From: Daucus carota subsp. sativus
Lineage: Eukaryota > Streptophyta > Magnoliopsida > Apiales > Apiaceae
Length of the DNA stretch: 64,000 nucleotides
Reading direction: 5' to 3'
Assembly (NCBI RefSeq): GCF_001625215.2
Contig: NC_030385.2
Coordinates: forward strand, 2,907,135 to 2,971,134
The first letter of the stretch is position 1. The number at the start of each line of letters is the position of its first letter. The notes under the pieces were generated by a model, which searched no databases, was not told where the DNA came from, and saw only the letters and a list, made by a program, of their open reading frames with translations. Positions 1,306 to 59,718 of this stretch are shown here, in pieces. Made by a program: the position numbers and the translations under genes.

Positions 1306-4300
1306 CTTAGCAGAATATAATATGAGGTCTTCCTTGCTTAGTTTGAGTGAATGACTACTTCCATATGATGCAAGGTTCAATGCAGCACGTGGTTCTGCCT
1401 GACACAATAGAAATGTAATTAAATGCTACTCATGAAACTTCAGTAATAATACTCTGATTTGTAATAGGATAAAACCACTGCAAAATATCAGCAAAAACTT
1501 ACTTGAGAACCTGTTGTCACAATTAACAAATCCTTTGGGGCATAAGCATCGATATCTTCTACTTTCACCTATACAGCATATACAACATTAAGATAAGTTG
1601 AGTGAGAAGTGGATGGCAAAAGTACATGTATATGGTGTCCTTGTACATGTATATAGTGGTTCAATTGTTTTTGTAGTTTATACACAATCAAACATTAACA
1701 TAAGCAGATAGAAGTTTGTGCGAAGAGAATAATATCTAGTACATGTGTTTTACACTGTCAATAACTTCTGATACTTTCAGCATATCAAAATCATGCATGT
1801 CCCAAATGCCTTCTTTAACATAGTCCAATATACCCCTCCTCCGAAGTAATTAGCCCTGCCCTTGTTTACCAAGTGGTTGAAAGTACAAGCTCTTATGGAG
1901 ACAAAGTGGTGTGTGCAAGTTTAACAAACCAGGACAGGTAATACATTATGAAGATCATTACCAGAGTTGATGGATCAATTGGTGCATTTCCATCTCTCCA
2001 CGCTGCCTCAAGGTACGTCCTCAGGGACATGCCAACAAAAACCTTTTACAAAGAAACCATGCATCTTTCATATAAGTGGAAAATAGTCTAAAAAGAGATC
2101 ACGTGCAACAAAAGGGTCTAAAAAATTTGGTATATGTACCAACTTTCTGCCTGTTAAATCAGCTGCAGCTTTCACACTTCCAAGACGATGGATATTTGAT
2201 GCAAATTGAGTAGTGATAACCCTTCCTGTCGCAGCAGATATATGACGCAAAAGTGAATCTGCAACAACAGTTTCACTAAAGGTTCTTCCAGGTGAAAGTA
2301 CGTTTGTCGAGTCACTCATCATCTGAAAAAGAACAGAAACTAGAAATATGTACTGGAAATTTAAAAAGGTAATGGCAGAAGTACGATATAAATTCTAAAC
2401 AAATAATGTGGCACTGTTCAACTAAATGTTTCAGTGCATTCTGTCAAAAATTGAAGATGAAGCATGGATACTTTACAGTGTACAGCATTAATCTATATGA
2501 AAACATGATTTGCACAATATACTGACTAGATAACAACATATAGACTTAATAAAACCATCCTAGTAAGTAGAACTGATGTCATAGTTTATATGATAGACTC
2601 CATTTGAGTATTACAAATTGACACTATTTTCACAGTGTCCAGCATTTAGTAACTTATCATCAGAAGGAGAAGTTTTGGTCAGCAGACTTACCAACGTTAC
2701 TCCTTCTTTAGATAGTTCCTCCAAACCTTCACGATCAAAAACTTTCCCGTCCAGTGGCGACTCATCTATCTGTTCAATTATAATAACAGCAAAGGTTAAT
2801 ACGTAAGCAGCCACTAAGACTGTAATTTTTCGAAGGATCATTAATCCTGGGACCAGTGGACTGCTTTCGCTGAATTTTTACTTAACTAAAATGCTTGACT
2901 TATCATATAAACTAACTTTTAAACCTTTTAGTTCATTTGATTGAAATTAACTATACCTCAGGTAATAAGACTGTTAAATAGACCTCCCTCAAATGAACTA
3001 AAAAAGTGAAGAAAATAGTTCATGGGATTCTTTAAAAGTTTGGCAAATAAAGATTGAACGGAAATAATAATATTCCTGCGACAACACCTAGAGACACTAA
3101 ATGATTACCTTCCAGTCCCCAGTGTGTAAAATTGTCCCATCGGCACACCGTAGAACTAGTCCACAACAATCAGGGATAGAATGGGTGACCCTAATAGGCT
3201 CTATTTCAAATGGGCCAGCATTAAATCTCCTCTTTGTTTTAAATGTTTTGAGCCTAGATGAAACAAAGATCCCAAACTCCTTCAAGCGCCTCTTAATAAG
3301 CTGCAAAAGACAAGACGCATCAACAACAAAAACTACGATAATCATAATACATATGTTATTAATATAAATCAATGCTGGTAACATTCAATTAATACATGTA
3401 TGTTTATCTTAAAGCTTTCTTTTTTATTTCTGTATCAATTTGTATCAGCAAAATGTGATATTGAAGAGCAACATATGCTGCACTATAGCAAGTTAGTTAA
3501 AAATATAGTCATGAAAATTGATTTTAAAGTAGTGGAAAGAGGTAAGAAAAGTGGGTAAAATTGTGGGACCCATCAATAGTAAATTAATTTGTGTTGGAAA
3601 GGGATGACAGTAGTGGGTGAGATTAATTATTGTATTATAAAAGTTTACTACTTTTAGAAAGTTTCGAGAAGTAAAGAATTGAGAGGGACAACCAAAAATG
3701 AAAGTGAAAAGAATTGGTTGGGATGGGGGAAGTAGCATATAGTTAGGCATATGTTTAGCCTTGATTAATATTTTATAAAGATCATTAGTAAAAGAGCACC
3801 TAATTAGATTTTGATGAACCCTTTAGGAATGTCAGATAATGGTCTGGTGTTACTGCAACGAATTTTAGCCATTATATGGAAGACATGATATATAGGGCCA
3901 CAAACCTCCATTGTAAATGAGGATGCAAATATGGGTGTCCGTGAATCCAAAGCTGGTATTACCTGTATAGATAGCAGGGAAACTAATTAGAAGAACATCA
4001 ATAAAAGTGAAACTCTAAGATCTAAAAGAAAAATTTAGCAAAATAACATCAAAGAAGCCACGTGAACTATAGACAAAGAGTTGCAAATTCTTCAACATTC
4101 TAGACAGTCTTAATATCAAATTGTATAAGTCTCATTGATTTCGCATACAGTGGTTCAATTAAACGAGTCAGGCAACATATATATGGAACCTATCATATTC
4201 ACTTTGAACGGCAAGCAGATGTTCATAGCCACCTTTCATCCAACAGGATTCTTTTTTTTTTTTAAATCTTAATATCTTAATGATACAAGGTTTCAGAGTA

Positions 4301-6367
4301 AAGGCACCTCTCTTCCTTCTAAAATTAAAGTTTTAACAACTGTCTAAACCTTGCGCTCAAAACAAAAGGTTCAGATGTCGCAATACCATGACGATCGCAT
4401 CTTAATATCCTTCTAAGAACATATATTAGCCAATATATCATTTTCAAAGTTTCACTATCTAAGACAACCATAGTAAAAGCACTTTATCTTAAAGTGACAT
4501 AGACTCTGTTAAGACTAGAAAACTTGAACTGCAAATCATTGCATAAATATAATCAACGACCTTGGCAATATGAATATACAAGACAAGCAGGTACCATCAA
4601 AGTAGGTACAACATATTGTGTGTGGGTGTACGTGTGTGTGTGTGTGTGTGATTTAGGAAGAAAAAAACTTTAAAACTGGATGACTACAAAGTACATATGT
4701 TTATCCACTAATGTAAGCGGAAACGACATACTTGAGAAGAAAAACTTTACCCAAGGCAATGCGCCAATGTGATCTTCGTGCCCATGTGTTATGATAACTG
4801 CTTCAATTTTGTGTCTCCATTTTTTAATAAATGTAGTATCAGGTATGATTTTCTGGACTCCAAGATCATCATAGCTAATGCATGTAAAAACAAAGTGGAA
4901 ACAAGATGTGAAAATTGAGTTCAAAACAAGCAGCTTTACATTTAAAAAGTCACGAAAGCATCTATGATACTGGGAAAGTAAAAACTAATAAGCAATCTAT
5001 GCTATCAGTATACAAGAACCAGACAAACAAATGTATTTCTATATGTTGTGAAGATGGGGGAGGGGTAGTCAACGCTAATTTCATTTAATAGCATTTTTGA
5101 ATTGCAAGAAAAAATTTGTATTTGTGGTATGAAACTATGAGTACAGCTTTTAGGCTTTCCTTCAACTCAAAATGGATGTACTTCTAAAAAACTAGTCCTT
5201 ACGTGGAGAAAAAACTTTTCACACAATTAGAGATAATACACAGCAAGCTAGACAAATTCAAGCTATTCCCTCTGTAGATATTATATAGCATGTACTTCTG
5301 TTAAACTTACTCTGGAAACATAATACCAGCATCAATCAGTATGTAACGATCAAAATTCCCCACAAGCATGCAATTCATCCCTATTTCTCCCAGACCACCA
5401 ATTGGGAGAACACGTAATGGTGGACCATCAGATCCTTCATAAAACTGCTCCATCTTGCGTTTAACAGAATCTTCCATACTTTTTCCAGCCCCCTCCCTTC
5501 TTCCAGATCTGTTACGAGGAGACCTAGATCCACGTGTACCTATGGTGATGCCATTATTAAGCAACCATTATCTTAAAATTATATAATATACATATATAAT
5601 AAAAAGACGGCCGGATCTTGTGTCAAGCAACATACTTGATGATAATAATTGATTAAACAGATTTTTCAGGATTTGCAAGAAAAGGTTTTTATGAAACTAG
5701 GACTCTAGGGGAACCCAACTACTTAAATCACTTCTATGTAAGTATGTCCCTATTCATAAAATACTTAAATTTTCCTCATTTTTTCAACCTGAATTTTCCT
5801 GCCGTCCTAGAAATAACACAACCAGGAATACTAGTCTCACAAATCTTATCAAAAGCAACTAATATCACTTGAAACTGAATCACCTGTGTGAACCAAAACC
5901 AACCATACATCTTCTTAAAACATAAGCCTTTAGAGCTACAACTTCACACAGTCTGAGAGCTTTCGAACCAAGTTTTGGACTTTCTGGACTCAAATTATAG
6001 CTTTACAAAAGCCTGTAACTTCACATAGCTCCGTCAACAGAATTTACTAGTAAAACTTCTTGAAAACATAACATAGACATACATTAACCCATCTCCAAAC
6101 AACTTACAGCTTTGCGAGAACCGGTCACTTAACATAAACCCATCAACTAATTTTACTAATTAAACCAGCATAAAAAATTTACACGTATTAAAAAGATTTA
6201 AACTTGATACAAAATTGCAAGGGAAAAACCCAATTGACCATGGGACGTCGAGAGTTCGAACCTGTTACATTACCAGAGGGCAAAGCGCAGGAAATGGGGG
6301 ATTTTCTGAAGGTGGGTGTGTGCCAAATCTTGTATGGATAGAGTGAAATGGCACTAAAGGCAGCCAT
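1306..6367 (-). CDS. RNJ: Chloroplast ribonuclease J (partial, C-terminus off window)
   Basis: RNase J is a metallo-beta-lactamase/beta-CASP nuclease that processes chloroplast RNAs. Ten exons (minus strand): 6274-6367, 5311-5539, 4751-4874, 3906-3962, 3109-3300, 2692-2769, 2140-2322, 1962-2042, 1503-1568, 1306-1398; together 399 codons in one frame, all with GT-AG borders. The start at 6367 gives MAAFSAIS, like the known plant protein; an in-frame ATG lies three codons upstream. The first ~45 residues look like a plastid transit peptide (Ser/Arg-rich, few acidic). Exon 2 carries [17 protein letters not shown], exon 3 the metal-binding [13 protein letters not shown], exon 5 THSIPDC and HTGDWK, exon 7 the beta-CASP start MMSDSTN. 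The remaining C-terminal half (in Arabidopsis it also ends in a GT-1/Myb-like region) must lie left of base 1. Family identity is very sure; completeness cannot be judged. Confidence 0.95.
3493..3732. mobile_element. Decayed MITE in an RNase J intron (same family as 12976-13782)
   Basis: Words such as AAAAGTGGGTA, GTGGGACCCAT and TATAAAAGTTTACTACTTTT are shared with the element at 12976-13782. The right end, GGTTGGGATGGGGGAAG followed by TA, is a decayed form of the GGGACGGAGGGAG terminus. The left terminus is not recognisable. It lies between exons 4 and 5 of RNase J and has no coding capacity. Confidence 0.6.
4614..4650. repeat. (GT)n microsatellite
   Basis: An interrupted GT/TG dinucleotide run lies inside the RNase J intron between exons 3 and 4. 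Confidence 0.85.
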
Positions 6368-30264: not shown

Positions 30265-31881
30265 GGGTCTGTTTGGAATTGCTGTTGAAAATTGCTGTTG
30301 CTGTGAGTAAAAGTGCTGTTTAAAAAAGTGCTGTTTAAAAAAGCTGAGACTGTTTGGTAAACTTGATTCCAAATGTGCTGTTTGAGTAAAAACTGAAAAT
30401 AAACTGTTTGGTAAATTTTTTGTTAAACTGCTGTTTAGAGTTATAATTATAAATAAAATAATATTTCATTCATTATTTCATAGGCAAATATTAAACAACA
30501 AATATAATTATGTAAAATTAGAAAATAAAAAAATAGTTAAGATAAAAATAAATTCAAACTTTGATAAATTGAGTAGTCTAATTATTGTACTAAGCTAAAA
30601 TAATTTATACGTTTTACATCATTAAACTATGAGCTATTTGATTACGAATAATATTCATCTCACTTGATCTATCACTTCTTTGACTTTGCTCTAAAACTTG
30701 TGGTCGGCGATCCGGAAAAATATCTCTTGGCACAAATTCTGGATGTATGTCAACTTCATGAAAAATAGTATCTTTAATGGAGCTCAACCTGATATAATTG
30801 TGCAGTGCCATAGATGCCACAACTATATCTCTTTGAGATTTAAATGAATATTGTGGCATGTATGTCAAAATCTTCCATCTTTTCTTCCAAACTCCAAATG
30901 TCCTTTCAATACAACTCCGAAGGGATGAATGCGCTTTATTAAATATTTCTTGGTAACTATTTTTGGTCCTGCTATAGAATACTATTTTTTTAAGATTTAA
31001 TTGATTATTTTTTATGATGTATGAGGTTTTTTTTAAAAATTATGTTATTAATATATATAATTTTAAGTAATGATATAAAAATCATATTGGAATAACCAAT
31101 AAAATTTATGGCTATTTATAAAAATTACGATATTCTATTTACAAAACTATATAATTTCTGTAAAATATTTTCAACAGTAACGCATCATTTATGTTTTACA
31201 CACAAAAATAAAATAAAAATAATTCTTTATATTAACTGAAAATATTTTTTTATGTGAGAGACTACTTCTATTTTATTTAGAACACCAATATTAATTCTTA
31301 TATTCAGTTAAAAATTATATAAAAATCTATACCATTTACCAAATATACTACTTATGTTTATTTTATATATAAATATATAATTTTCTTCTTCAATTAATAT
31401 ATACTACTCAGAAAATTTAATTTCTGCCTCTATATTATAATGAAATTTTTTTAAACAAAATTTAATGAAACCAAAAAGATATAACCTTACAATTCATTTA
31501 AACAATATTTATTTCAAATGTTTTCATTTAAATTATTATTAGAAAACATTCAGCAAACATCATGTGTAGCCAACAATAATCGAGAATATAATAAAATGTG
31601 TGTTATATGTGTGTTTTGTTGTTTTGTTTTAAGGGTAAACAACTACAAAATATTTTATAAAAAATAGTTGCTTTTGTCAGGGTTTGATGCCGGGCTCTGT
31701 AACAGCTGCGCGCAACAGCTGCTTTTGTGAAAAGCAGGGGTATACCAGCTTTCTGTAAAAGCTGCTTTTGGACAAAAATTGCGTTTAGAAAAAGCTCTTT
31801 TAGATTTTACCAAACACTTTTTTACAGCGGTTTGAGAAAAAGCTGCTGTTGTGGTTCCAAACCACAACGCCAAACAGGCAC
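30265..31881. mobile_element. PIF/Harbinger element, internally deleted
   Basis: The ends are GGGTCTGTTTGGAATTGC at the left and, on the other strand, GTGCCTGTTTGGCGTTG at the right. TTA lies on both sides (30262-30264 and 31882-31884), the 3-bp PIF target. Subterminal AGCTGCTTTTG/AAAAGTGCTGTTT words recur. Inside, only a C-terminal transposase piece remains (30614-30978, minus strand); the rest is AT-rich filler. Confidence 0.8.
30614..30978 (-). pseudogene. C-terminal remnant of a Harbinger DDE transposase
   Basis: The minus-strand frame is open from about 30978 to the stop at 30614: KAHSSLRSCIERTFGVWKKR followed by ILTYMPQYSFKSQRDIVVA and SMALHNYIRLSS. These are typical of the HARBI1-like DDE nuclease C-terminus, with the last acidic residue in the CIERTFG block. 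The N-terminal two thirds, including the first two acidic catalytic residues, are missing, and no MADF/Myb-like partner gene is present. Confidence 0.8.
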
Positions 31882-33304
31882 TTAGTGTTATGTGTAACAA
31901 TAATTTTCACCATTAGCTCAGTTGATCTCGTAGGAAAAATCCAATCATAATTTAAGTCGGCTTTAATATAATTCAATGGCTAACTCTTAATTTGATACCA
32001 TTTCATTCAAAATTTAGGTAAACTCTACTTGTCCCAATTATTTTTTGTTGAGATAATTTCATGGATAACTCTTGATTTGGTATCACAGAGCTCAGAGCAC
32101 TCCCTGGTTAAAGCAGATTCATGGGAATCTCGTTTATATCTATTTAAATTAGACTTAATTACCAAAAAAACTATTAAACTTATGTGATTATTTCATTTTA
32201 ACCATAAAACTATTTTTGTTGCAGAATAATGCAACTAAGTAATACAAAATCAATTTGACATGACCCAATTTTAATGAATCTCTAACCATGATTAATCAAC
32301 AAAAGAAAAAATAAGTGGTTAATTCATAGCTGACATTAATGTCACATGCAGCATAAGACATCAATTTTTTTAATTTAATTTTAAAATTTACATAATTTAT
32401 TATACATACATAAAAAGTCAGCTATATTTACATTTTCTTTTTGTGTATGAAAATTCAAATAATAAATTTTTAATTAGAAAAAATAATAAAATAATTAATG
32501 AAACTATTTTTTTTAGAAGTATTAAAATGCGTGTCAAACTCTCGTTTTCAGATCACCAAAATATTGCAAACTACAACAATATTTTAATAATGCTAAAAAG
32601 AATAATATAGTGTTAATAATAAAATCTGAATCTAACATCAGTGACAAAAAAAATCATAGTTTAGTGCTAAGTTTCTAAATACACAATAAGTTTGGTGGCG
32701 AAAAATCTATTTTTCTTAAATAAAATTATCAATTCGATATAAATTAATATAATTTGCATGAAAAATAATCGATATACAATACCTGATAGAAGGCGGTTTC
32801 AAAAAATCACACTAACATCGTCGCCTTCGAACATAAGTTTTAGTACGCTCTGCGTCTATGTAGATTGTGAATTAGGATTTTGACCCTTAATGAGATAGTA
32901 AAAATATTAATAAAATCCATGTACCAAATAATTTAATTAATAACTTGATAATATATGTGGCATCCATCTTAACTTTAACTTAACCATGGTTATGAACTAG
33001 TGACATTGGGTTTTTAAAATAAAGTTTTATAAAGTTACTTGCATTATCCTGCAACAAATATACTATTATGGTTAAATTGAAAAAAACACTATAGTTATAT
33101 AGTTTTTTTGGTAATTAAGTCTTTAAATTATAAATCCTACTACACTTTTGGGTACAAATTGTCTACTTTGTCCCTCTGTTTTTTGTGTATCTTCAGTATA
33201 TTGCCACTCTATACAGCCTCATTATACGGTATGAACACGTGGACACTGCTCAGCCACACAATTTTTCATCTGCACAGCTCATCTACACAGATCTTCTCTG
33301 CTTA
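31882..33304. other. AT-rich spacer
   Basis: No gene, no clear element ends. It is bounded by the PIF/Harbinger element at left and the Tourist-like MITE at right. Confidence 0.5.
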
Positions 33305-33699
33305 GAGCATCTCCAACGGTGTTGGCTATAATCGTTGGCTAAATTGGACCTGTAAGAAATTATGTAAAATTTGCTGAACCTGTAAGACATTTTGCTTCAA
33401 TGGTACTGGCTATATTGGTTGGTTATAATTTAAAAATAGTATGTTATTAATATTTTAAATTGTTAAAATAGAATATATCAGTTCAATATGGTAATAAATG
33501 ATGTACAATCTTCCTACAGATTTTCTTACAGACCTGCAGAGGTTCGACAAATTTAGCCATCCATAAGAGGTTGGCTAAATTTATAGACAACAGCTGAGCA
33601 TGGTTGGAGTTGGGTTTTTGGAGCTGTTGGCTAAATTTTTTTATTTTAGGTATGCCACCTCACTTTTTAGCTAAGGGCTTTAGATGGTTGGAGATGCTC
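33305..33699. mobile_element. Tourist-like MITE, intact, 395 bp
   Basis: Starts GAGCATCTCCAACGG and ends GGTTGGAGATGCTC, with TTA duplicated at both borders (33302-33304 and 33700-33702). No coding. Same family as the decayed copy at 12286-12651 and the fragment near 50860-50945. Confidence 0.88.
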
Positions 33700-34825
33700 T
33701 TACCACTACAGTTACGTTTCAAAATTCAAAACATTGTGCTCTAACCTCTCCCGCGTGCGCTGCGATTATTTCCGCCGTCTCGCCCTTTTCACGCATCTTG
33801 GCAGCTGTTCTCCACCTTCTCCGAGGCTTGCTTTTATTCAAATTTGAATCCCGCTGTGTGTATCTATCTCTATCCCTCCTTACTCTCATATATTCATCTC
33901 TCTCATATTGTAGTATATATTTATTGATGATTGATTGTTTTTGCAGAAGCTTGATTCAAGGATATTTTGAAGAGTATAGATTTATGATTTGAAGCGCAGC
34001 TGTTAAATCAATTCTCCGATTTTATCTCTCTCTCGCAGGAGTTGGTAATCGCTCTACCCCTCTCTCTTTGTTAGTATTTTGTTCGAATATATATTTTTGG
34101 TTTTTTTTTTCTTTTTCAATTTGATGTTGTTTGATATGGCGAGTTTATTTTGAGATGGATTATTGTGTTTTATTTGTGCAGAACAACTATTTGATATAAG
34201 TTCTGAGAGAAACTTTAACTATTTTTTCTGAATTTTAGATTTTGAGTTATATAGAGATATATGTTAGTTTTGTACACATAGATGTTGTGACGCTTTATTC
34301 ACTAGGTGTTTGACAAAATGTGCCAGAGAATTTTTAGATTTTGAATTTCCATTTCATATATTTTTCTTATGAACTTAATTTCGTTTAATATTGTGCAGTT
34401 TGTGTGTTATTCATATGTGTTTTAGGATAATCTTATGTTATGATTTATGTTATTATGTGTCTGAGGAAGAAGTAGAGAAGAAGGTTAGTTCCTGTGATTG
34501 AGTTCGAGAATTATATTTTTACTCTTAACTACTTAAAGTGTTGTTGGTAATATAGAACTAAAAGTTTTATTTGATCATTTTTCTTTCCAGGCAATGGCTG
34601 AAAAGATTGACCGCATGGAACTTGCTTTTAAATCCCGAGACAAGGCAGCTGGATTTTTATCACATTCTATATGCTACTATATGATTATCTTTTAGAAAAT
34701 TGATTGTGTATAAGATTTATCAGCAATTTATCAGCAATTCTGAATATACTATATACTATAAAATTAGTTCATATTTACTTTCTTTTTATGTCTGAAAATA
34801 TAGTATGCATTTTCTGTTGATGCAG

Positions 34826-35073
34826 GGGATTTTCTACTTGGTTGAAATATGTACTTGGTATGGCATTTAGAAGAGACAACGAGCCTTTTAAGGTTTGTTT
34901 ACTTCTGTAAAATTGGAATCTGATGATATATCGGGATATGCAATTTTTGTAATTTGTTTAATGATATTAAAATAAATGAAAGTTCCAATGCAAGGATTCA
35001 CCGAAAAATTGTCTGCATGATGATGTCCAAAAAATTGTTTAAGCCTCAGGGTGGCCCAATTATAATGTCTCAG
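34826..35073 (+). pseudogene. Beta-galactosidase (GH35) fragment, two exons
   Basis: Piece one (34826-34892) reads WLKYVLGMAFRRDNEPFK after a TGCAG acceptor and before a GT donor. Piece two (about 34983-35073) ends KIVCMMMSKKLFKPQGGPII followed by MSQ and a GT. Both match consecutive exons of plant GH35 beta-galactosidases. A one-base loss early in piece two puts its first codons out of frame, and the IENEYG acid/base block that should follow is absent. The gene could not make an enzyme. Confidence 0.8.
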
Positions 35074-35394
35074 GTCATCTTTAATAATGAAGGAATTGTG
35101 TTATTGTGTAGATGCGTTCTAATATTGATTTGCTTTCATTAGACATAGTCTAATAGTTTAATTATATGTGGGATTAATTTGTAGTTAAGGATATTTAGAA
35201 GATGCCATAGTTCCTGAGTAGGAGCACTTGATTGGAAGAATCAAATACTAACTACAAGAGGAATGACTGTTCAGACTGTTAATTATAAAATCGAGTATTT
35301 TAATAATCGTAGTCTACAACAAACGGCATGCTAAAAGCCTAAAATCAATTTGACCAGTAGGTTTATCTCTAAGCATTGTTAATACATCTTCAAT

Positions 35395-36190
35395 TAAGGT
35401 ACACAGATTGTTGAATATTTTGTCAATGCCGATGAATTGTGCACGAGGACTCGAGGAGGGAATATGCACGATGGTTAGCACGGACAAACTTGCTACTGGA
35501 GAGGTAGTAAATGACTTGCATGGAATCCACTTTTTTATCTTTTAACATTATAATTATTTGTCTCACATTTACCAAGAGATTTGGTGTATGGGTTGTAGGA
35601 AAAATAAGCATAAGGTTGTTCCATCTAATGCACTTTCCGGATCTACAATCTCTGCATTTGACGACGTGAGTTTTGAAGACCCTGATTTTCTGTACATACA
35701 ATGTAAGGGGTAAATTGCCTTTAGCTATTAAATTTGATATGAGAGTGATGAAGTGTATAAAAAGTTCTTGGACTTTTCAGCTCTTGCTGAAGCTGGCATT
35801 GTTTTAAGTAAGCTGTCTGTGGATGATTCCAGTTGGCAAAAAGGTGCAAAAATTTTCCCAGATAGGTAATGCAGATAAAATTTGTGTTTAGGTACTGTCT
35901 TTTACCTTCTCGATGACTTTGGCAACGGTCTGCACATTAAAAAAACTCAATTCTTCTGTAGATTTATATCTCGCCAGGATCCCATAAGTTGGAAAGCCAA
36001 GCTAGATTATGAAGTCATGCCAGGATTAAGGGAAGAGGTAAGAAAAATGAAAAGACTTTGTAGGCATGCATCTACGTAGTCACACAATTAGTTATGCTTT
36101 TCTGTTAAAAGCTGACTAATGTACAGTCCAGATATCAAGGAAGAGCTTGGGTTTTATGGATGTAAGGGAGATCAATTCATGCAATAGTTG
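35395..36190 (+). pseudogene. Exon-like pieces of unrecognised gene(s)
   Basis: Several stretches are bounded by plausible splice sites and read as protein: LEEGICTMVSTDKLATGE (about 35450-35505, before GT), ALAEAGIVLSKLSVDDSSWQ followed by KGAKIFPD (about 35780-35866), FISRQDPISWKAKLDYEV followed by MPGLREE (about 35962-36039, after TGTAG and before GTAAG) and SPDIKEELGFYGCKGDQF (about 36126-36180). I cannot name the source gene or genes, nor say whether they belong together. They lie between the beta-galactosidase and oxidase pieces and are probably captured too. Confidence 0.4.
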
Positions 36191-37801
36191 TACTTTTCAA
36201 GGAATTGCTTGCTGGTGACAAGAGCATATACAGAACAGTTTTTGGTCTCTCTCTCTGTCTCTGTGTCCTGGAAAATGATCTCCACAATTCCAAGAAGAGG
36301 GCTTTCTTTCGACAATTTCATTACTCAAGTGCCTGAATTCCATGGTAACTTTGCAGATAATTTTGTTATATAAGTTTGTGCTTGAATAAGCTTTGGGAAA
36401 GATAATGTTTTGGTAAAATATAGTTACCTTTTACATGTTTTATTATATAACAAATAACAAATGTGTTTCTATTTGTAGTTAGGACATTTGCTGCGGATCA
36501 TCAAATTGTTGTGATGAATTTGGCAATCATTTATTTGAATTAGTCAGCTCCTCGGGGGAATTCCCATCAGTTTGAAACAGAGTACTGAAGATATTAGCTG
36601 TAGTGCTCTATGCCGAGGTCTAGCATACATTTTCAGTCACATTCAATATTAAATTCTGCATAAAGCTGGTTCATCCGTTCATTGGGAATTATGGACTTGA
36701 GTTATTATGGCATTCTATTTTTTTTAAGACATTAGGCATTAATTGATTTGCAAGCAATATGCAAGGTGCCCATTTGTAAGTTTAATGCAGACTGGCCATG
36801 CATGGCCCTGATATGTATTTTAATGTTACAGGTATTTTGTTGTGTAGTTCTTTATGCTAACTGTTTTAGTTGAATTTGCAGCAAACTTGCCTGGTCCTAC
36901 GATATACATTTCTTCTTATTAGTTTTCAAGCATACTATATAATTATAGTATTAAATCCAATTATTAATTTTTTCACTCAAGTAAGGCTTAGATTAAGTAC
37001 TTTTCTTCGTGTAAATAAGATTCAATTTTCATTAGTTGTAAATAAGATTAAGTACTCTCTCTTTCTCTCATTTATGGAAACATAATTTATCTTTTATATT
37101 TTTAATCTAGGCCTTTCTCATTTTTTTGGGTGATAATGTTGTGTTGCTTCGTCTTGCAGATGTAATTATGTTTCGACTAATATACATGTTTTTAATCCAT
37201 TATTTTGTTTTTTCATGGAATTAATGAATATATTAGTATGCATTTGTTTGTCTTTGTGACGTGGAATGTGTTTTGTGAGTCATAAATTGTTACTTGAAAA
37301 GTAATTAAGGAGCATTAGTTTTCGAGAGATCTCTATGCATAATAATTTGCTTGGATCATAGAAGTAATCTGTTCCGCTATGGAATAAGATAAGCGAAACA
37401 CTTGAAGTGAAATTTTACGAGATACCAATCCTTTCATACAACCAAAGCAGTAAATCTGTTAAGCGTGTTCCTTCACTTTCTCTTTTTCTTCTGGCCATGT
37501 ATTGTTTGTTAACCTGTTAGTGATGATAACAATGTGTCGAGGTGCTGCTCCTGTTGTTTCTTTTACTGGGCTGAACAAATGAGAGCATATATTTCTTTCT
37601 TAGGTTAAATGCTTTAGTTTAAAGCTTCAGATAAATATAGTTGCATACTTTGGCTTCTGCTTTCGGGTAAACTCTTGCTACTCAGCATGTTGAGTTGTCT
37701 TCAGTAAATGCATAGGTAAAAGATAGGTAAAAGCAACTCTTTTACTGATTATGTTAACAATTTATCTATAGTGGTTGACATTCTGTTTGGTTTATTGGCA
37801 G

Positions 37802-37963
37802 AATGAAAAAGGAGTCTAAAGAGTTTGCCGAGAGCCTTTTGATGCACTAACCTGAAGGAGGAACATTACAGGAGAATTGATCAACAAAGCAGAGTTGAAA
37901 GAGTTCTGGGAACAAATTTCTGATCAAAGTTTTAAATCCAGGCTTCGAACTTTCTTCGACATG
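37802..37963 (+). pseudogene. Respiratory burst oxidase (RBOH) exon fragment
   Basis: After a GGCAG acceptor the frame reads MKKESKEFAESL, then a one-base deletion shifts it, a TGA interrupts, and it continues [19 protein letters not shown] and [12 protein letters not shown]. This is the segment just before the first EF-hand of plant NADPH oxidases. The EF-hands, the membrane core and the FAD/NADPH domains are absent. Confidence 0.82.
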
Positions 37964-38109
37964 TGGGTAGGAAAATATGATATTTTAGTCCTCATATGCA
38001 GCAAGTTCAAATTTATTTTTGTCAAAATAAAATTAGTAGATTATCTAATTCATAAAAATAAATTAATATGCAACAAATTATATAACTAATTTATTGAATT
38101 TGGGCATGT

Positions 38110-38360
38110 TTGTCTACTTCCTGTTTTCAATTCCAAGCTTATGTTTTTGGAGCTTTTGAGTTGCTGAGTAAAATAGTGGAGGACTTTGAATACCGGAGAA
38201 TTTGTCAGGCAGTTGATCAAGGTAATGAAAGCACTTTGATTTCAGAAAATGTATCGTCTTTCTCATAAATTATTTGCTTTGTCAGCTGCGAAAAGGCTCG
38301 GGTATGATACAACCGGTGGTAAGAGAGGCAGCTTTACTGTCTCCACTCATATTAAGGTAC
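38110..38360 (+). pseudogene. Two further exon-like pieces, unrecognised
   Basis: FGAFELLSKIVEDFEYRRIC followed by QAVDQ ends before a GTAATG donor at about 38221; AAKRLGYDTTGGKRGSFTV followed by STHIK lies at about 38286-38357 after a TCAG and before a GTACAT. They look like neighbouring exons but I do not recognise the source. Confidence 0.35.
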
Positions 38361-38928
38361 ATTTATGGTTTACTACACAATTAATGTAATGTATCACAGA
38401 TTTTGATTTGTACACCCATGATATAGCTAATTGTTAGAACCATTTAGATATATAGCATTCCCAAAATTTATAAGCACCAAAACATATTTGCGCGCTGTCT
38501 CTTTTTTTGGCTCTCAAAAACATAAAGTTTCATGGCTCAATACACATCAGATATGCAGACCTTTAACTCACCACTTTGCTTGAGTTTGATCCAAATGTGG
38601 ACCTCATAAAGTTTCAGGGCTTAATACACATCAGATATATAGCCTATTGATCTTAATTTCTATAGCTTTTTATTTAAAGTCTTAGATTATGTTTTACTTC
38701 TTCTGATTAACATTAATTAATTTCACATGTTCCATCAATTTTCACTCAATGCATGATTTGGTTTCATTGGAGTACATTTAGGTTTGACTCATTTAGACTT
38801 CATCAAGTTGATTTAGTTTTTTTTTTGGTTTAGAATCATTTCAATTGGACAGGGTTTAATGTATGTCAATAATCCAGATTGACTAGATCCATGTATTAAA
38901 CAAGAAATTAATCCACCATCTTTGCAAG

Positions 38929-39262
38929 GTGATTTGAAGTGGAGCTGAAGGAGGTCAAGTTGAGAGACGGCTATTATGTGATGGACCCTGAAAAGGCTGC
39001 AGAAATGGTTGATGAGAACACCATTTGTGTTGCAGCTATTCTAGGATTCACTCTTAATGGAAAATTTGAAGATGTAAGCTCTTAAATGACCTCTTGGTTA
39101 AGAAAAATGCAGAAACTAGGTAATCCAGTCTTGCTCATTAATGCATATCATTTGATGACTTGCTGGATTATAGGACCATCTTTTATCTATTTAATTTCTT
39201 TTGGTAGATGGGATACACCAATTCATGTGGACGCTCCTAGCGGTGGGTTCATTGCCCCCTTT
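38929..39262 (+). pseudogene. Glutamate decarboxylase middle exons (fragment, forward)
   Basis: Exon one (38929-39073) reads [20 protein letters not shown], then [19 protein letters not shown] up to GT at 39074. Exon two (39208-about 39262) reads WDTPIHVDAPSGGFIAPF. In plant GAD these lie just N-terminal of the PLP-lysine block SINVSGHKYG, which is missing here. The HVDA motif (PLP contact) is present. The homology stops at a T run near 39254-39262, where the inverted C-terminal piece begins. Confidence 0.88.
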
Positions 39263-39264
39263 TT

Positions 39265-39565
39265 TTTTACCTGGAACTGTAATGGGACTTCAGCTTTTCT
39301 TCACAACTTTGCCGTTGTCCACCTCAGTTGTCAACTTCTGTGTCACCTTACTTGGGAGTGTGTCAAGCTCCTCGAGCACCTGCTTGATATTTGTAACCAG
39401 GCGTTCAGCCAGAGTTCTTGAGAGTCCTCACGGATAACTACACGAAGCACAGTAACATGTTGGGCATCATGAGGCATGGTGTAAGCTGGCACAATCCAAC
39501 CATAACGCCTTAACATGTTTGAGACTTTGAATTCATTGTGTAGGCTACGATTTTTCGGAGAGAAT
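39265..39565 (-). pseudogene. Glutamate decarboxylase C-terminal exon (fragment, reverse)
   Basis: On the minus strand the frame reads [40 protein letters not shown], then a one-base loss shifts it and it continues [20 protein letters not shown] and [20 protein letters not shown], with a stop two codons later. This is the last part of plant GAD, before the calmodulin-binding tail. It points against the forward GAD exons at 38929-39262, with the junction at about 39262-39265. Confidence 0.88.
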
Positions 39566-40109
39566 TCATTGTAATTTTTGGCACAGATATTGATGGCTAA
39601 TTTCAAATTTTTAAAACAACTCATTTTTTATTTTATAATGAAAAACAACTAATATTTGGGTCTTGCATTACTTATTTTAAAATACAATATAAATGTTTAT
39701 ACTATTTTTTGTACTATTTTATTTCTATAAATTAAATTTATAGTTATATATATTTGGTCATTTGGGTCAAACATATCGTACCAAAAATTGAAATAACGAG
39801 ATTATCTCTATTATCAGATATTTTTTCAGCTTAGAATTTAATAGATCAGCACAAGAAATAGAAAAAATAAATATAAAATAATTTCTATCCAAAAACATAA
39901 AACCTCAACTCTAATCAAATACAAATTTAAGCAAACATATTTTTTTTTTGAAAAACATTAATTTAGAACGCCGATGCAGAGCGGGCAAACATACTAGTTT
40001 ACATAAATACACCAATATCTACGAGTCAGCAAGGTGGGACATCTGAACATGCATAGGTTTATGTCTTGCCTTTTCAAGATACGGCCCACGGGCCACCGCT
40101 CGTGTATTA

Positions 40110-40462
40110 GAGCATCTCCAATAGTCTCTTAAGTCATTCCTCAAATATAATATAAAATATTCACTCTTAACAATTTAATGTATATTCATCTCCAACAACA
40201 CTCTTTACATCCACTCTTAAACAATATTTTATTATTAAATGAATAGGACTACAATACTAGAGTGGAAAGAGAAAGTGGATGCTTGTATTACTTTATAATA
40301 AAATATAACTTAAGAGTGAGTGAGAGACTCTTAAAAGAGAGGAGAGAGAATAGACTCTTAAGGTTTTGAAGAGCCTTTAAGAGTCTATTGGAGCTTCCAT
40401 TTTGTTAATGCTCTCTATTTTTTCATTTAAGAGCTTGTTTAAAGAGCTTATTGGAGATGCTC
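40110..40462. mobile_element. Tourist-like MITE, second family, 353 bp
   Basis: Starts GAGCATCTCCAATAG and ends CTTATTGGAGATGCTC; TTA flanks both borders (40107-40109, 40463-40465). The interior (CTCTTAAG words in both directions) differs from the 33305 element although the termini are nearly the same. No coding. Confidence 0.85.
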
Positions 40463-42814
40463 TTATGGCAATTAACAAATTAGATAAGTTGGGAGCTCCT
40501 TTGAGTGGCTTCAAATAATAGTTATTATCAATTATTTATGATTTTATGTGATAAGATAAAAAAATATTAGATAGTTAATAAAAATGAAAATTTTAACTGG
40601 AATTTAAAATCTAATATACGATGATTATTGTTAATTTAAGATTCTTTACAGGAATCTCAGATCTAAATTGCAAATCATAAATTATAATTGATTATTCTAG
40701 ATTAGTATAAATATCTATATAAACTCATCCACCACCCTCGGCACCTAATTTTTGATAAGCATGATTCTTATGCTAATTAGGTTCATTTGTTATATAATCT
40801 AATCTATGAACCAGCTACACGAATTTGACTTGTATCTTTGTCCCTGTTTGTAAATTACATGCGTATTAAATTATCCAAAGGAGCTTTTGATGTTTGTTAA
40901 CTATCCATAGTTGCATTAAACTAAATAACATTGTTGCCTAAACAAAGGTATGGGTGCTGCATGCCTGCATAAACTAGGAGCATTTATGTCTTGATTTTTA
41001 TGTCTGGATTATTTAAATTTGTTTTTAAAAAATTCTGTCTGTGACAAGTGATTAAAAGATAAGAACTAGAGTAAGAGTATGTATGTCTTGATTTTTAAGC
41101 TGGGGTTTTAAAATTATTTCTAAAAATATCTGTTTTCATAAGTGATTAAAAATTAAGAAATAAGTCTGAAACGAACTTAAAATCAGAAAAAGTTAGACTA
41201 AAATACATTTTTCAGTGATTTAATTTTTCTACACTTTTTTTAGTTAAAATTATTTATTAATTATTTTATTTTAATATTTTTAATAAAATAAAATTATTCA
41301 AACTGACATTTTAAACACTCTGACTTATCATATCACCTTAACTTGAACGTTTTAAAATGCATTAACGTTAAAACAATGATATTATGATAGAGGTTAATGT
41401 GCAAATATTCGATTGAAATTATTACATTTTTTGTCCACGCATTAGCTGTCGATGCTTGTTTTTGCCTTTTCTTTTCTCTTTTTATCATAAAAAGGCTAAT
41501 AACTTCTGCACAATTATTTTGTATTAATAAATATATTTCATTTGTCAAGGAGTGGGTGACATCTTACGAGAGATAATATTTACATACACATGTTTACTTA
41601 GACCAATTACTTCGAGATGCATATCCAGCTATCATTCGGTATTCTCGAAATCAAATCATTCTTGTTTTTTTGGGTGTATGTCCTAAATAAAATAAATTAT
41701 CCATAAAGAATAAATATTATATATATATATATATATTCTACTAACTTTTTAAATTTTGATTCATTTCATTGAACTATATTTTCATATGTAATTTAATAAT
41801 AATAAATTTATTTTCAAATAACTAACTTTTAGTATTGAAACATTTAATGTTATATAATATTTTTACTCAATTAAATTTTATCAAAAACTAGAATATAATA
41901 TATATTTATTTGAAATAAATTAGAATTTTCTTGACTTTTAGTGCACCACTCACCATTCCTAGTAAAGGAGTATATCAATCCTCCCATATTTGTTAATTCA
42001 GAAATAGCCTTATTTGGTCCCGAATTAATAGTAAGAATTTGGTGGGGATTAGTATTAATAGATTAATAATAAGTTATATAAAAAGATGATGATAATAATA
42101 ATGATGATGATTTGGCTAGTATGTGTCTAAGGGTTGCGCTAAGTTATATCTAATCATTAATACATGAAATTTAAATTATGTTGATCAAAATGTGTTGATA
42201 GACATATCATTGAAAAACCGTAATAATGCTAATTAAAATTCCTGGTTTAATTAAAATCTTTTGATTTAAAAATATGCAATAGGTTTTGAATATCAAATTA
42301 TCTAAAATTATACATAGTACTTTTAGAGGTTTTACAAATGTAGCTACCCAATTTTAGTTATCTATATTTTTTTGCTAAGGGGTAATGGTTGGAGACCAGA
42401 ATTTTTACCTATTATCTAAAATGTGCCACATAGATGTCATGTAGGTGCCACATAAACACTTTTACCTAGGGTCTAATGCCTTGGAGTTGCTCTCATAGGT
42501 GGATTGAAAGAAGTTTCGGTTGGTTAATTTACCCGACTAAAATACACAACAGGATAAAAAGGTGTAGACGTCTGGTCACACTCACAAGTCACAAGCACAA
42601 AACTCAAAAAGAGTGTTGCACCCGGTCATCAACTGTGTCCTCTACCATTCCCAACTTTCAAGTGCGCACGCACGAGTTTGTCAAGCTAAACAAGTGGTGC
42701 AAACCGCGCCATCCCATTTTTATCTTAGCCTGCAATGCCATTCTTCTCTTTCTCATTTTTACCCATCTATATTCCGTCATGTTCATTACGTTATTTTTTA
42801 ACAAGTATTTTAAA
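40463..42814. other. AT-rich spacer
   Basis: I see no gene. A (AT)n run lies at about 41717-41738. Near 42370-42490 GGTAATGGTTGGAG...CCTTGGAGTTGCTCTC looks like a decayed MITE with GAGCAACTCCAA-type ends. Short open frames here have no protein-like features. Confidence 0.5.
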
Positions 42815-42993: not shown

Positions 42994-43758
42994 TAGTAAT
43001 TAAAACACACAGTAGTGTAACTTTATGGATATACTATTCAAATATATATTCGATTAGTCTAAATAATCAGCATTCAACCATATGACCTATCATTGTCGAT
43101 ATTGGATATTCAAAACTAAAAAAAGTTGAGCACGTAAAAATTATTTATGCAATAAGGTATTAAATTGATACCGTTTTGACGGACTGAATTGATTGTTCAC
43201 ATTTTGGTTAATGAGATTTACGTACATGTCACGGATTACGTTAATTTTGTTTCCTTCAGATGAAAATTTGGTGCTTAGATTTTTGTTTAAAAATTAAAAT
43301 TTTCAAAAATAATTTATAAAACTACATTTTATATACACTTTAATATACATATCAAGAATCCTAACAAAAAAAATAAATACATATCAAGAATAGAAAAAAT
43401 AGAAAAATAAGTATTATAGAAGGAATTATATCTTTTATTTTAATGACGAATTTTTATGAACTCTTCTCCTCCGTGTATGAAAATCTTCTTCGATAAATTT
43501 CTTAAACCTGAATAAAAGAATATTTATTATTACATATCCATTAATACACATAAAAGATTTATTACATAAAATCACAAGAGCAGTTATATTCGTGTAAATT
43601 CAATCCAAACCGAACCCGAAAAACCGAACCCGAATATAACGAAACCAGCTGGTCCTGTTAAGTTTATCCATTTTCACACCATTTCTCCCACAGACAGCAT
43701 CTCTCAAAATTCAAACAAAAAATCATTACCAGCGAAATCTCATATCCCCCAGGATTCA

Positions 43759-46700
43759 ATGCCAAGTCCCTCCGATTCTCCCGAGGCCATCGACCCCAAC
43801 AGCGGCTACGAATCCGCTACCAGAACATTCCACAGCCTCCGTCCCCGGGTCCCACTCCCTCCTTCAACACAACCACTCTCCATCACTCAATACGCCTCCT
43901 CTCTCCTCCACTCCACCGCCTCATTCTCGCCGGAAACCACCGCCTACCTCATCGACGCCGCCTCTTCCACTCGTCTCTCCTACTCTCAGTTTCTCGAACA
44001 ATCTCGCCGTCTCTCCGCATGGCTCCGCTCGCGGTTCCCGTCGCTGTCGAGCCAGAAAGTCGCGCTCATTGTCTCGCCGCCGTCGCTGCACGTTCCAGTT
44101 CTCTACTTCTCGCTGATTTCATTAAATGTTATTGTTTCACCGGCGAATCCGCTGTCGACTCCGTCGGAATTGGAGCATCTGGTGAAGTTGTGTGATCCGG
44201 TGATCGCGTTTGTTACGAGTTCTGTTAGTTCCGTTAGACACCTGCCGGCGCTACCTACTGTTATGATCGACTCGCCTGAGTTTCTGTCGATGTTGAATAC
44301 AGAGAAATCGTATGAAATGCCGAAACAAGTGGCGGTATCGCAGTCCGATACGGCAGCGATACTTTACTCGTCCGGTACGACAGGACGCGTGAAAGGAGTG
44401 GAGCTGACTCACAGGAATTTGATCACTGTGATTGCGAATTTGTATCATAACAAGCGAGCGTCGTTGGAGGATGAAGAATTGAGTGTGGCGTTGTTTACGC
44501 TGCCGTTGTTTCACGTGTTTGGATTTTTTATGCTGATTAGGGGATTTGCGCTGGGAGAGACATTGGTTCTCATGGAGAGATTTGATTTTGTGAAGATGTT
44601 GGAGGCGGTGGAGAAGTATAAGGTTACGTATATGCCTGTTTCTCCTCCGATTGTGGTGGCGATGGCCAAGTCTGATGTGGTGAAAAATTATGATCTTAGC
44701 TCACTCAGGTTGCTTGGTAGTGGAGGTGCTGCGTTGGGTAAAGAAACTTCGGAGAGGTTCACGGCAAGGTTCCCGAATGTGGAGATATCTCAGGTACGGT
44801 GATCACACCGACGTCTATGAAGCATTGGTCGAGTACTGATAAACATCAATTTACAGTTTACGTTTCGTTCTTGTGTTGAGTTTTTCTGATATTACTGAAA
44901 TTTGATAAATATAAATTTGCTAGGTAAGATAATAAAACTTTAATAGACGGATCATTTGGATCATCTTAGGAGTTAGGATCAATCAAATTGTGTTTGCTCG
45001 AGATTTATGAGTTTATGTATGTAAATCATGTACATAGTTAGGCCGGATTTGATTGGGATTCGAGTCACTTTCAAGCTTATCTTGGTAAATTGTGTTAATA
45101 ACGAAAGCATGTTTGAATCGTATTTTGGACGGTATTAATAAGTTCCCTGCCGAATGATCTAATACTACAGTTCATTTGGGTTGCTAGGACTAGTACTATA
45201 ATGGTATGATACCATCAGACAGTTGAGGTGGGGTTGGTAATTGTTTATTTGAAATTAATGCTAATGAGTTTTGTATCATCATCTCCTAATAATGTTAGTG
45301 TCCATAATATTAAATTGCGTGAACTCTCTGACCTTTAGGGATTGTCTCCTGACCATTTCGCTGTGTCCGATATGATCAATAATTTGTATATTAGCTACTT
45401 AATCTTTGTCATTTACCTGTGACATAATATTCTAAGATGCTCAACTTTACCTACTTGTGTGTGGGTCAAGTATGCAATTGTTTATCATTCTTGCGGTAAT
45501 AAAACAAGATCTAACCATGTTCTCATATCCTGGCATGTTTTCTATTCATATTAATTCTTGTGGGATCAACTTTGTAAACAAAAGTGAAGTTTAGAGGAGG
45601 CATACTTACAGTAAGCATGACATACTTACCAAGTAGTCTTAATACCCCCGAGGTAATAGAAGTATTAGTGACTAAGAATATGTCTCACTGATAAGTTCAA
45701 CTTGGTTCCAGAAACAAAAGTATCCCTACATTGTGTTCACAATTTTCAGAGCTTTGAAAAGTCAGAAGACTTGACTTATAGAACCAAGGTCAATACAGTC
45801 TTGTAAATACAATTCAGCTTTAGCATTTGTTTGGAAAAGTCCGAAGCAGTGCTAAGGCCTACACGAATAATTAATTAGATCATCAACTTTTATGCATCAT
45901 ATTTCTTTTTCTATCGAGATTTTTATTTTTATTTTTTTGTGACCACACATTTGAATGGCTATTCATGTTTTTGGCTGTTTTGTACACAGGGGTATGGTAT
46001 GACTGAGACTGGGGGAGCAGCAACTACAATGTCTGATCCAGAGGAGAGTAAAGAGTATGGATCTGGTGGTCGCCTAGCAGCAAACATGCAAGGCAAAATA
46101 GTTGATCCCGTAACTGGCCAGGCCCTGCCACCTGGAAAACAAGGGGAGCTATGGCTGCGAGGACCTAATATCATGAAAGGTGATGCATTCACCTTTATAC
46201 TTAATTCTTATTGTTGTGTAGCTTACGCCATACGGCATTGTTTGCATTTGAGAGAAGCAGAGATGTTGCATAGCTATTTGCTAGCAAAAGTCATGTGGCT
46301 TTTCAGCAGGGCCGTGCCTGAGGGTGTGCGAGGTGTTCGACGGAACAGGGCCCAAAATTTTGAGGGGCACATGTATTGTATATGTATATGTATGTATTGT
46401 TTAAAAAAATATATATTATCTTAGCAAAATTAAAAAATGTTATATTAGTCTTAATGAAAAAGTAATTTATAATTTTTTTTAAATAAAATTAATAAGAAAA
46501 TATGTAATAAGAATATTAATCTATTTGATTAGTAATTTAGACTACTAATTTTAATAATTAAATACAATGGACAACACTAGTTTTCGTTTAGACAACTTGT
46601 ACCTTATATTATTTTTAATAATTCAATTTTTGGATATCTAATTTATTTTAACTTAGGTTTCTATTGAATGTGTATATATTCAATGAAAAAGTTAAATTAG

Positions 46701-57196: not shown

Positions 57197-59718
57197 ATGG
57201 TTGGAATGGAGAGTTATGGATACAATGCACCAATGTCGAAGAAGACAGGTGCAGCTTATGATGTCCCAGAGGGTGTTGATATCAGGGGACGATACGATGC
57301 TGAGTTTGCCAGAATTCTTACCAAGGATGCTCTGCAGTTTGTTGCTGGATTGCAGAGGGAGTTCAGGAACCATATTAAGTATGCAATGGAGTGCAGAAAG
57401 GAGGCCAAGGAACGGTACAACAGCGGGGGCTTGCCAGGGTTTGATCCTGCCACGAAGTACGTCAGGGAAGGGGAGTGGATGTGTGCTCCTGTGCCATCAG
57501 CGGTGGCTGATCGCAGGGTGGAAATTACGGGGCCGGTTGAGAGGAAGATGATAATCAATGCACTCAACTCGGGAGCTAAGGTTTTCATGGTATGTGTGTT
57601 TTTTCTGATAATTAGTCAGACTCACGCGCCTTTTTATCTTTGACAAGATTTGAACCCTCGACCTCTAGTAAGTAGAGTGAGGAGCATACTAAAAGAACAT
57701 GTTATTTGCATATATGTGTAGTGATTAGATTTTGAGATAAATATAGTAACGTAACCAAACTAAACATACTCAGTATGTCCGAGAAGTTATAGGCAGACTT
57801 TACTGATACTCAAAAGAGTGGATAGGAAATGTTCTGTGAAGTCCTCTGGATTCAATTTCTCATAATTATAAGATTAGAAGAAATATACTTACCTGAATTT
57901 TGAATTAAATAAATTCATGTAGACGAACTTGGGTCATCAAGGTCGATCCAACCTATTACCTTAAAGAGTTAGATCAGCTTAAGATGAGGAAAGATGGAAG
58001 TTTTAGCAGCAAGATAAAGAGGAAAAAAAAGGGTAATTTTCTGTAATCAGTCATGAGTCAACTGTAAAACAAAGTATCACAGAGCAAATGAGCAATACTT
58101 CAGATGAGAAAATATTATTTGTTCTTTGTTGTCTCTGCTTGTGGTTCTAAAAATTAATTAGCATGATGTGAGGAAAAGAGACATGATTATTCTGAATCAA
58201 TCTTATAGGCTGATTTTGAAGATGCACTTTCACCGAGCTGGGAAAATCTTATGAGAGGGCAAGTTAATTTAAAGGACGCTGTTGATGGGACGATAAGCTT
58301 CCATGATCAGGCTAGGAACAGGGTCTACAAGCTGAATGATCAGACTGCAAAGCTTTTCGTCCGCCCAAGAGGTTGGCACCTACCAGAGGCCCACATCTTC
58401 ATTGATGGAGAACCTGCAACTGGTTGCCTTGTGGATTTCGGCTTGTACTTCTACCATAACTATGCAGCCTTCCGACGAAACCAAGGTGAAGGGTATGGAC
58501 CCTTTTTCTATCTTCCAAAGATGGAAAACTCAAGGTATGATTTTCTGGTTCAGTCTCAGTATCCTTCAGATGTTTTCATTTGTAAATGTTAGAAGTGATG
58601 CCATATAATTGATATTGTTACAGGGAAGCTAAAATCTGGAACAATGTTTTCGAGAGGGCAGAGAAAATGGCTGGAATAGAAAAGGGAAGCATCAGAGCTA
58701 CTGTTCTGATTGAAACACTTCCCGCTGTTTTCGAAATGGATGAAATTCTTTATGAACTAAGGGATCATTCTGTTGGATTGAACTGTGGTAGATGGGATTA
58801 CATATTCAGCTACGTCAAGACGTTCCAGTCCCACCCTGATCGCCTGCTACCAGACAGGGTACTTGTTGGCATGAATCAGCACTTCATGAGAAGTTACTCC
58901 GATCTTCTCATCAGGACCTGCCACAGGCGTGGTGTGCACGCTATGGGAGGCATGGTACTAAATATGCATCCTTTGTCAAATACTTGTATTATACTTTAGA
59001 GAAACATATTTGAGTTTTTTTTTTTTTTTGATAAAGTTCTTTGCCCTTATCTTTTGAACAGGCTGCTCAAATTCCAATCAGGGATGATCCGAAGGCCAAT
59101 GAAGCAGCTCTGGAACTGGTGAGGAAGGATAAACTGAGAGAGGTAATGGCAGGACACGACGGAACTTGGGCAGCACATCCAGGCTTGATCCCGGCCATCA
59201 TGGAAGTCTTCACCAACAACATGGGCAACTCTCCCAACCTAATTAAAACCGTGAAACGTGAGGACGCAGCAAACTTGACTGAAGAAGATCTTATACAGAG
59301 GCCTAGAGGAGTCCGAACCATGGAAGGACTCAGGCTCAATACCCGTGTGGGAATCCAATACGTAGCTGCATGGCTCACAGGGACAGGATCCGTCCCTCTC
59401 TACAACCTCATGGAGGATGCAGCTACCGCTGAGATAAGCCGAGTCCAGAACTGGCAGTGGATAAAATATGGCGTGGAATTGGATGGAGATGCAATGGGAG
59501 TCAAAGTGACAAGATGCCTCTTTGGGAGAGTGGTTGAAGAAGAGATGGCTAGAATCGAGAGGGAAGTAGGACGCGAAAAGTTCAAGAAGGGAATGTATGC
59601 AGAGGCTAGCAAGATTTTCACTCGACAATGCCTGGCACCGGTACTGGATGATTTCCTGACATTAGATGCTTACAATCGTATCGTCATCCACCATCCCAAG
59701 ACATCATCCAAGCTCTGA
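57197..59718 (+). CDS. MLS: Malate synthase, glyoxysomal
   Basis: Condenses glyoxylate with acetyl-CoA to malate in the glyoxylate cycle, in glyoxysomes of oil-using seedlings. Four exons: 57197-57589, 58209-58534, 58624-58954, 59062-59718; 568 codons plus stop, the usual plant length. The family signature [16 protein letters not shown] is intact; [59 protein letters not shown] and the catalytic-Asp block [19 protein letters not shown] are present. The protein ends SSKL, a canonical PTS1. A second ATG three codons in (57206) is an alternative start; the first ~20 residues vary in the family. Identity is certain and no defect is seen. Confidence 0.98.

Follow-up and report, generated by a model that had tools for sequence, protein, structure and literature searches.

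The carrot genome raises the question of how pieces of six genes came to be packed into 5 kb (34751-39565) of a single stretch of chromosome. The stretch analysed here, hereafter the window, comprises 64,000 nucleotides of Daucus carota subsp. sativus (G000:C5:2907135-2971134), and an earlier note made from its sequence had proposed that one non-autonomous Helitron there carries at least five captured pieces. We arrive at the same answer in an enlarged form, on the evidence of a tail present at 40 places in the genome, a TC 5' end, flanking A and T, and seven pieces from six genes. The element (32139-39997, 7,859 bp, + strand) is almost certainly a non-autonomous plant Helitron of a many-copy family, with a cargo from at least six genes, probably taken up over successive rounds.

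Ends and insertion site of the element

Plant Helitrons start with TC, end with CTRR preceded by a hairpin, and insert between A and T or between two Ts (PMC4683698). At the right edge the window reads GCGGGCAAACATACTAG followed by T, an exact match of which 0.03 would be expected by chance in the window even with up to 3 mismatches, and the terminal CTAG lies at 39994-39997. The 5' end is hidden because a 970-bp terminal inverted repeat (TIR) element has inserted 13 bp inside the Helitron. Ahead of the end of this TIR element at 32152 the sequence reads ...GTTTATA followed by TCTATTTAAATTA, which is the 5' end of the family, begins with TC at 32139 and has an A before it. A 9-bp duplication stands on both sides of the TIR element, and the Helitron therefore runs from 32139 to 39997, with host A before and host T after it. 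The bases at 32138/32139 (A, then TC) and 39997/39998 (CTAG, then T) are those of an insertion between A and T without target duplication. The Helitron has no TIRs of its own, as TCTATTTAAATT and GGGCAAACATACTAG are non-complementary by eye and the TIRs that were found belong to nested elements. The left edge that had been placed at 33703 thus has to be moved to 32139, with 33305-33699 and 32152-33121 being nested elements. The 5' end of the window copy had looked damaged at 33118-33141, and an edge near 33120 (TCTTTAAATT, with G before it) was considered as a decayed 5' end; it was rejected since its flank is a high-copy TIR element ending there and TCTATTTAAATTA is found at 32139. No convincing ends of a second Helitron were found inside the element.

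A family with common ends

The earlier note had suggested looking elsewhere in the genome for the same 3' end and for a TC 5' end, and both were found. Matches to the terminal 198 bp of the block were found at 26 places, the window included, and 15 of these cover almost the full length; the 18-mer GCGGGCAAACATACTAGT (the last 17 bases plus the host T) is present exactly at 40 places, again including the window, compared with 0 for the reversed control (441-Mb genome). We fetched 20 of the 26 tail-matching loci, the window copy among them. CTAG is intact in 17 of these, the next base is T in all 17, and the flanks beyond differ. The family 5' end, TCTATTTAAATTATAAATCC with small changes, is recognisable in nine other loci, eight of which keep the TC; an A precedes it in seven of the eight (L015 has T), and L025 has TT. 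One copy, L010, lies within a (TA)n run, where it is bordered by A and T and shows no duplication.

Some copies have peculiarities of their own. L020 (C6:40364700-40374699) has the initial 1,630 bp of a family member in three head-to-tail units at bases 288-5178, with unit identities of 100, 100 and 99.88%, each unit beginning exactly at the Helitron 5' TC (the join reads GGAAAGAAATT and then TCTATT), and with a single 3' end; its sister L019, at 99.1%, has one unit. The triple unit could reflect nested insertion followed by amplification, rolling-circle re-initiation or an assembly artefact. The tail of L023 is broken at ATACTA (oriented position ~9600) and continues with CTCCCTCCGTCCC, which we take to resemble the end of a Stowaway-type miniature inverted-repeat transposable element (MITE). 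The copy in L025 (C9:11022950-11032949) is flanked by frames that by eye are reverse-transcriptase-like, of a retroelement or pararetrovirus-like kind, and two places on C3 (37.25 and 37.46 Mb) match the window in the same pattern as L025.

Cargo from six genes

Six genes outside the window, on C1, C4 (two), C5, C7 and C8, are the sources of seven captured pieces (Table 1). As each match extends along contiguous genomic DNA, introns are kept, and the element thus holds several host-gene fragments with introns, as a gene-capturing Helitron does. Judged from the source frames, six of the seven pieces are in the sense direction. The broken exons of beta-galactosidase, RBOH and glutamate decarboxylase (GAD) recognised earlier, with their introns, are confirmed by matches in Pfam, the Protein Data Bank (PDB) and the genomic DNA. 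For beta-galactosidase the identification is firm at the DNA level (88.7%, L036) and weak at the protein level (PF01301, E 0.099; PDB 3w5f, E 0.0028); the N-terminal frame of the source itself reaches E 1.2e-4 and 22.3 bits for PF01301, under the cut-off of 27. The RBOH piece matches PF08414 with 27.4 bits (E 4.3e-6), where the cut-off is 27, and its source gene has PF08414 and PF01794. The + strand GAD piece matches PF00282 (E 2.6e-8) and PDB 3hbx (E 2.9e-21), the antisense C-terminal piece PDB 3hbx (E 6.4e-19). In the TFIIH Ssl1/p44-type source locus, PF04056 is matched at E 1.7e-69 and PF07975 at E 4.7e-19. The source gene on C7 is presumably SLH-like, a name without Pfam support; its two SLH-like frames gave no NCBIfam matches and nothing above the Pfam cut-off.

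No named source gene was found for 34317-34731, 36263-36364, 36369-36489, 36899-37051 and 38107-38920. The multi-copy segment 38168-38451 is possibly derived from another Helitron, and a frame neighbouring a similar segment in L039 is, we assume and without Pfam support, Helitron-like. The differing divergences of the pieces from their sources fit capture at different times, which they do not prove because exons evolve slowly.

Table 1 Features of the Helitron in the window, with positions in the window. TSD, target site duplication.
Feature	Position	Strand	Matches and remarks
Whole Helitron, 7859 bp	32139..39997	+	Host A at 32138, host T at 39998
Initial 13 bp of Helitron, separated by nested TIR element	32139..32151	+	Holds left TSD 32143-32151; uninterrupted in L010
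Nested TIR element, 970 bp, ~145-bp inverted ends	32152..33121	.	9-bp TSD TTTAAATTA at 32143-32151 and 33122-33130
Helitron 5' backbone	33122..33304	+	Common to L010, L015, L016, L019, L020, L021, L023, L025, L027
Nested MITE, 395 bp, presumably PIF/Harbinger-like	33305..33699	.	TSD TTA at 33302-33304 and 33700-33702
Helitron backbone with CT-rich stretch	33701..34304	+	79% in L019 and L020
Piece without named source gene, also elsewhere	34317..34731	+	L038, C8:9.46 Mb, 89-93%
Captured beta-galactosidase exons and introns	34751..35146	+	L036, C8:10.80 Mb, 88.7%, 399 aligned columns; L025 93%
Captured ~1 kb of presumed SLH-like gene	35290..36262	+	L032, C7:4.16 Mb, 93.7%
Captured piece of TFIIH Ssl1/p44-type gene, reaching C1_4-coding frame	36490..36898	+	L041, C4:26.50 Mb, 92.5%
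Segment common to other family copies	37052..37285	+	L019, L020, L027 at 85-86%
Captured Rab GTPase intron	37286..37701	+	L040, C4:47.89 Mb, 86.4%; PF00071 frames on both sides
Captured RBOH exon region	37723..37981	+	Gene L035, C5:2.25 Mb, 89.3%
Segment common to a locus also having 34300-34408	37982..38100	+	L042, C2:33.05 Mb, 90%
Multi-copy segment	38168..38451	+	10 other whole-piece copies at 80-87%; L039
Captured glutamate decarboxylase piece, sense	38921..39296	+	Gene L029, C1:44.09 Mb, 91.8%
Second piece of same decarboxylase gene, inverted	39295..39565	-	L029, 91.0%; 2-bp overlap with sense piece
Helitron 3' backbone and terminus	39583..39997	+	Tail matches in genome

A sister copy and joins common to several copies

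The closest comparison is offered by L010 (C7:22.35 Mb), which is 97-99% identical to the window copy in the left part, 33122-33304 plus 33699-35318, and in the tail from 39438 on. It lacks the 4.1 kb between them (35319-39437), joined at a 5-bp microhomology, CTACA, that is present on both sides, and it also lacks the 970-bp TIR element and the MITE at 33305-33699. The two copies differ at 28 of 2,355 bases (K = 0.012); with a substitution rate of 7e-9 per site per year they would have split roughly 0.9 million years ago.

Cargo sharing was compared over 26 loci, namely L010-L028 and seven others. Both GAD pieces, at 93%, are present together with the right end in L011 and L013, which lack the left cargo, and the inverted GAD join is common to the window, L011, L013 and L030, the last of which also has 36206-36368. 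In L025 the beta-galactosidase piece is joined directly to part of the SLH-like piece, and in L033 and L034 the SLH-like piece continues as it does in the window beyond 36262, the point where the source-gene match ends. L037 (C3:48932500-48937500) has another kind of Helitron-like tail, GCGGGCAAAAAATCCTAG with T after it, yet contains part of the RBOH piece; it also has 36300-36364 and 38365-38607, in an order unlike that of the window, and L013, which has the tail of the window family, likewise has 38537-38607 before 36300-36364. Such sequence overlaps might mean that different Helitron families draw on a common, circulating pool of captured pieces, a reading that we offer tentatively and consider doubtful. 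If it were true, with the cargo of L037 exchanged ready-made and not recaptured, exon shuffling by Helitrons would proceed through recombination of one another's cargo.

Nested and neighbouring elements

The long TIRs and 9-bp TSD of 32152-33121 are those of a Mutator-like element, a name that we assume from the TSD length; 32400-33125 is part of a high-copy TIR element (40 scored of 1,686 first-look candidates). The MITE at 33305-33699 has inverted ends and a 3-bp TSD, from which we take it to be of the PIF/Harbinger type; L010 provides the empty site, TTCTCTGCTTACCACTAC, and further copies are present in L017 and L018. Another MITE-like element, which shares the GAGCATCTCC ends and the TTA TSD, lies at 40110-40462, 112 bp to the right of the Helitron. 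On the - strand, 30617-31039 encodes part of a PIF/Harbinger-type transposase that matches DDE_Tnp_4 (E 6.5e-9) and is possibly related to the drivers of these MITEs. Ordinary host genes near the Helitron encode an AMP-binding enzyme, presumably 4CL-like, and malate synthase (43570-46421 and 59035-59715).

A candidate driver and the coding potential

As for how a non-autonomous element could move, the tail is shared with L024, L026 and L028 (77-78% over the last 112-117 aligned columns, with exact identity in the last 17 bases). Immediately upstream of L024, L031 has frames that match Helitron_like_N (E 7.2e-7), PIF1 (E 7.4e-51) and Pif1_2B (E 2.9e-23), and frames of L024 are presumably RPA-like. 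From these matches, L031 and L024 possibly form one RepHel-bearing element, at C3:44.72 Mb, that is a candidate driver of the family. The Helitron would then replicate as a rolling circle, using RepHel supplied in trans by a relative that ends in the same 3' tail; it or its ancestors would have taken up short genomic stretches of at least six genes, mostly in sense, over successive rounds, with some pieces lost or exchanged, and each step of capture may have proceeded via short-homology joins during transposition or repair.

No stop-to-stop frame longer than 117 aa exists in 33000-40600, and a long chimeric protein is therefore not encoded. The CT-rich stretch from which the earlier note had envisaged a chimeric transcript (33717-34304) is not a captured host leader but backbone common to relatives (79% in L019 and L020). 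A chimeric RNA from the Helitron is possible, and the effect on the plant is most likely none as protein and at most that of a non-coding chimeric RNA or a source of small RNAs. For annotation, the pieces of six genes within 34751-39565 carry a warning, as they could be called as genes.

Alternative origins of the mosaic

Could the same mosaic have arisen in another way? Filler-DNA repair of double-strand breaks, as opposed to Helitron transposition, would account for the short overlaps at joins (2 bp between the GAD pieces, 5 bp of CTACA at the L010 deletion) and for the inverted GAD pair, which resembles the outcome of repair synthesis. However, the mosaic has moved together with its ends, since L010, on C7, has both the left part and the tail with 97-99% identity, and we regard such repair as an unlikely replacement for transposition; the two are partly compatible, in that repair inside the element could be a step of capture. 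Capture by a Pack-MULE or CACTA element, with the Helitron as a mere neighbour, could draw on the 970-bp TIR element and the MITE inside the block, but each of the two is bordered by a complete TSD within Helitron backbone, neither spans the captured pieces, both are absent from L010, and no TIRs are seen at the block edges, which makes this origin very improbable. Finally, there is next to no chance that decayed tandem or local genes lie side by side next to a fortuitous CTAG: the RBOH source gene is indeed on the chromosome of the window, at a distance of only about 0.69 Mb, but the other sources are on C1, C4, C7 and C8, the tail is present at 40 places and L010 has some of the same joins on another chromosome, so that distant sources and shared ends refute the very combination, an unshared end and tandem local genes as the source, that the earlier note had named as fatal to a Helitron.

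Several observations weigh against the Helitron assignment or parts of it. CTAG followed by T is exactly as the earlier note had described it, but the hairpin, although GC-rich and placed as expected about 10-12 bp before the 3' end, has a weak folding energy: 91 of 200 shuffles of the window tail fold at least as well, as do 48/200 and 68/200 for two other copies. The host flank left of 32139 is single-copy, and no empty site was found in this genome. CTAG is lost in three of the 20 fetched loci (L011, L017 and L023), and the family 5' end was not found within the fetched stretch in ten of them, L009 apart (L011-L014, L017, L018, L022, L024, L026 and L028). Of the 19 loci L010-L028, only four (L010, L011, L013 and L025) have cargo from a named source gene in common with the window; L015 shares, besides backbone, only the multi-copy segment 36369-36489, and the remaining 14 only terminal or backbone segments, with the 5' end of some of them lying beyond the fetched stretch. 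As for the driver, the RepHel frames of L031 are interrupted, L031 and L024 are joined as one element by adjacency only, the 5' end of that element was not found, and the DUF223 matches in the frames of L024 are below the Pfam cut-off. With all these points counted, a cargo-carrying, non-autonomous Helitron is the reading that we retain with high confidence.

Comparison with known Helitrons

Among the paper titles listed for Helitrons in carrot (Daucus carota), subscription papers not included, none is devoted to this family. A curated set of carrot Helitrons is mentioned in PMC10581907, and the family may therefore already be catalogued. The same source describes a carrot Helitron at the Y2 candidate gene on chromosome 7, which differs from the window element in being a 17-kb insertion. 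As far as exact tails go, a link between the two was rejected: the single nucleotide polymorphism used for that gene is at 39.19 Mb (PMC10581907), whereas the four exact tails on C7 are at 22.0, 22.4, 23.0 and 36.2 Mb, if C7 is chromosome 7.

The carrot element is a multi-gene Helitron whose two boundaries are fixed and whose sources are traced, and it comes with a deletion sister, subset-sharing copies and a candidate driver, which together make the order and route of capture testable by comparing copies. Relatives in kind are found in rice and maize. Like rice DHH_Mothra with its RPA/RepHel relatives, the family is non-autonomous and has termini in common with protein-coding relatives, but Mothra has blocks of tandem repeats whereas the cargo here is heterogeneous (PMC4683698). 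In maize, Helitrons capture multiple genes stepwise, and helA elements carry 0 to 12 gene fragments (Dong et al. 2011, PMC3288121). The carrot element resembles helA in its CTAG 3' end, in several fragments apparently from different chromosomes, in copies sharing subsets of these and in internal losses (PMC3288121); it differs in species and sequence family, in its two nested TIR elements and in having captured one gene in both orientations. It is a clear and well-dissected case of a known kind of element, and not a new kind.

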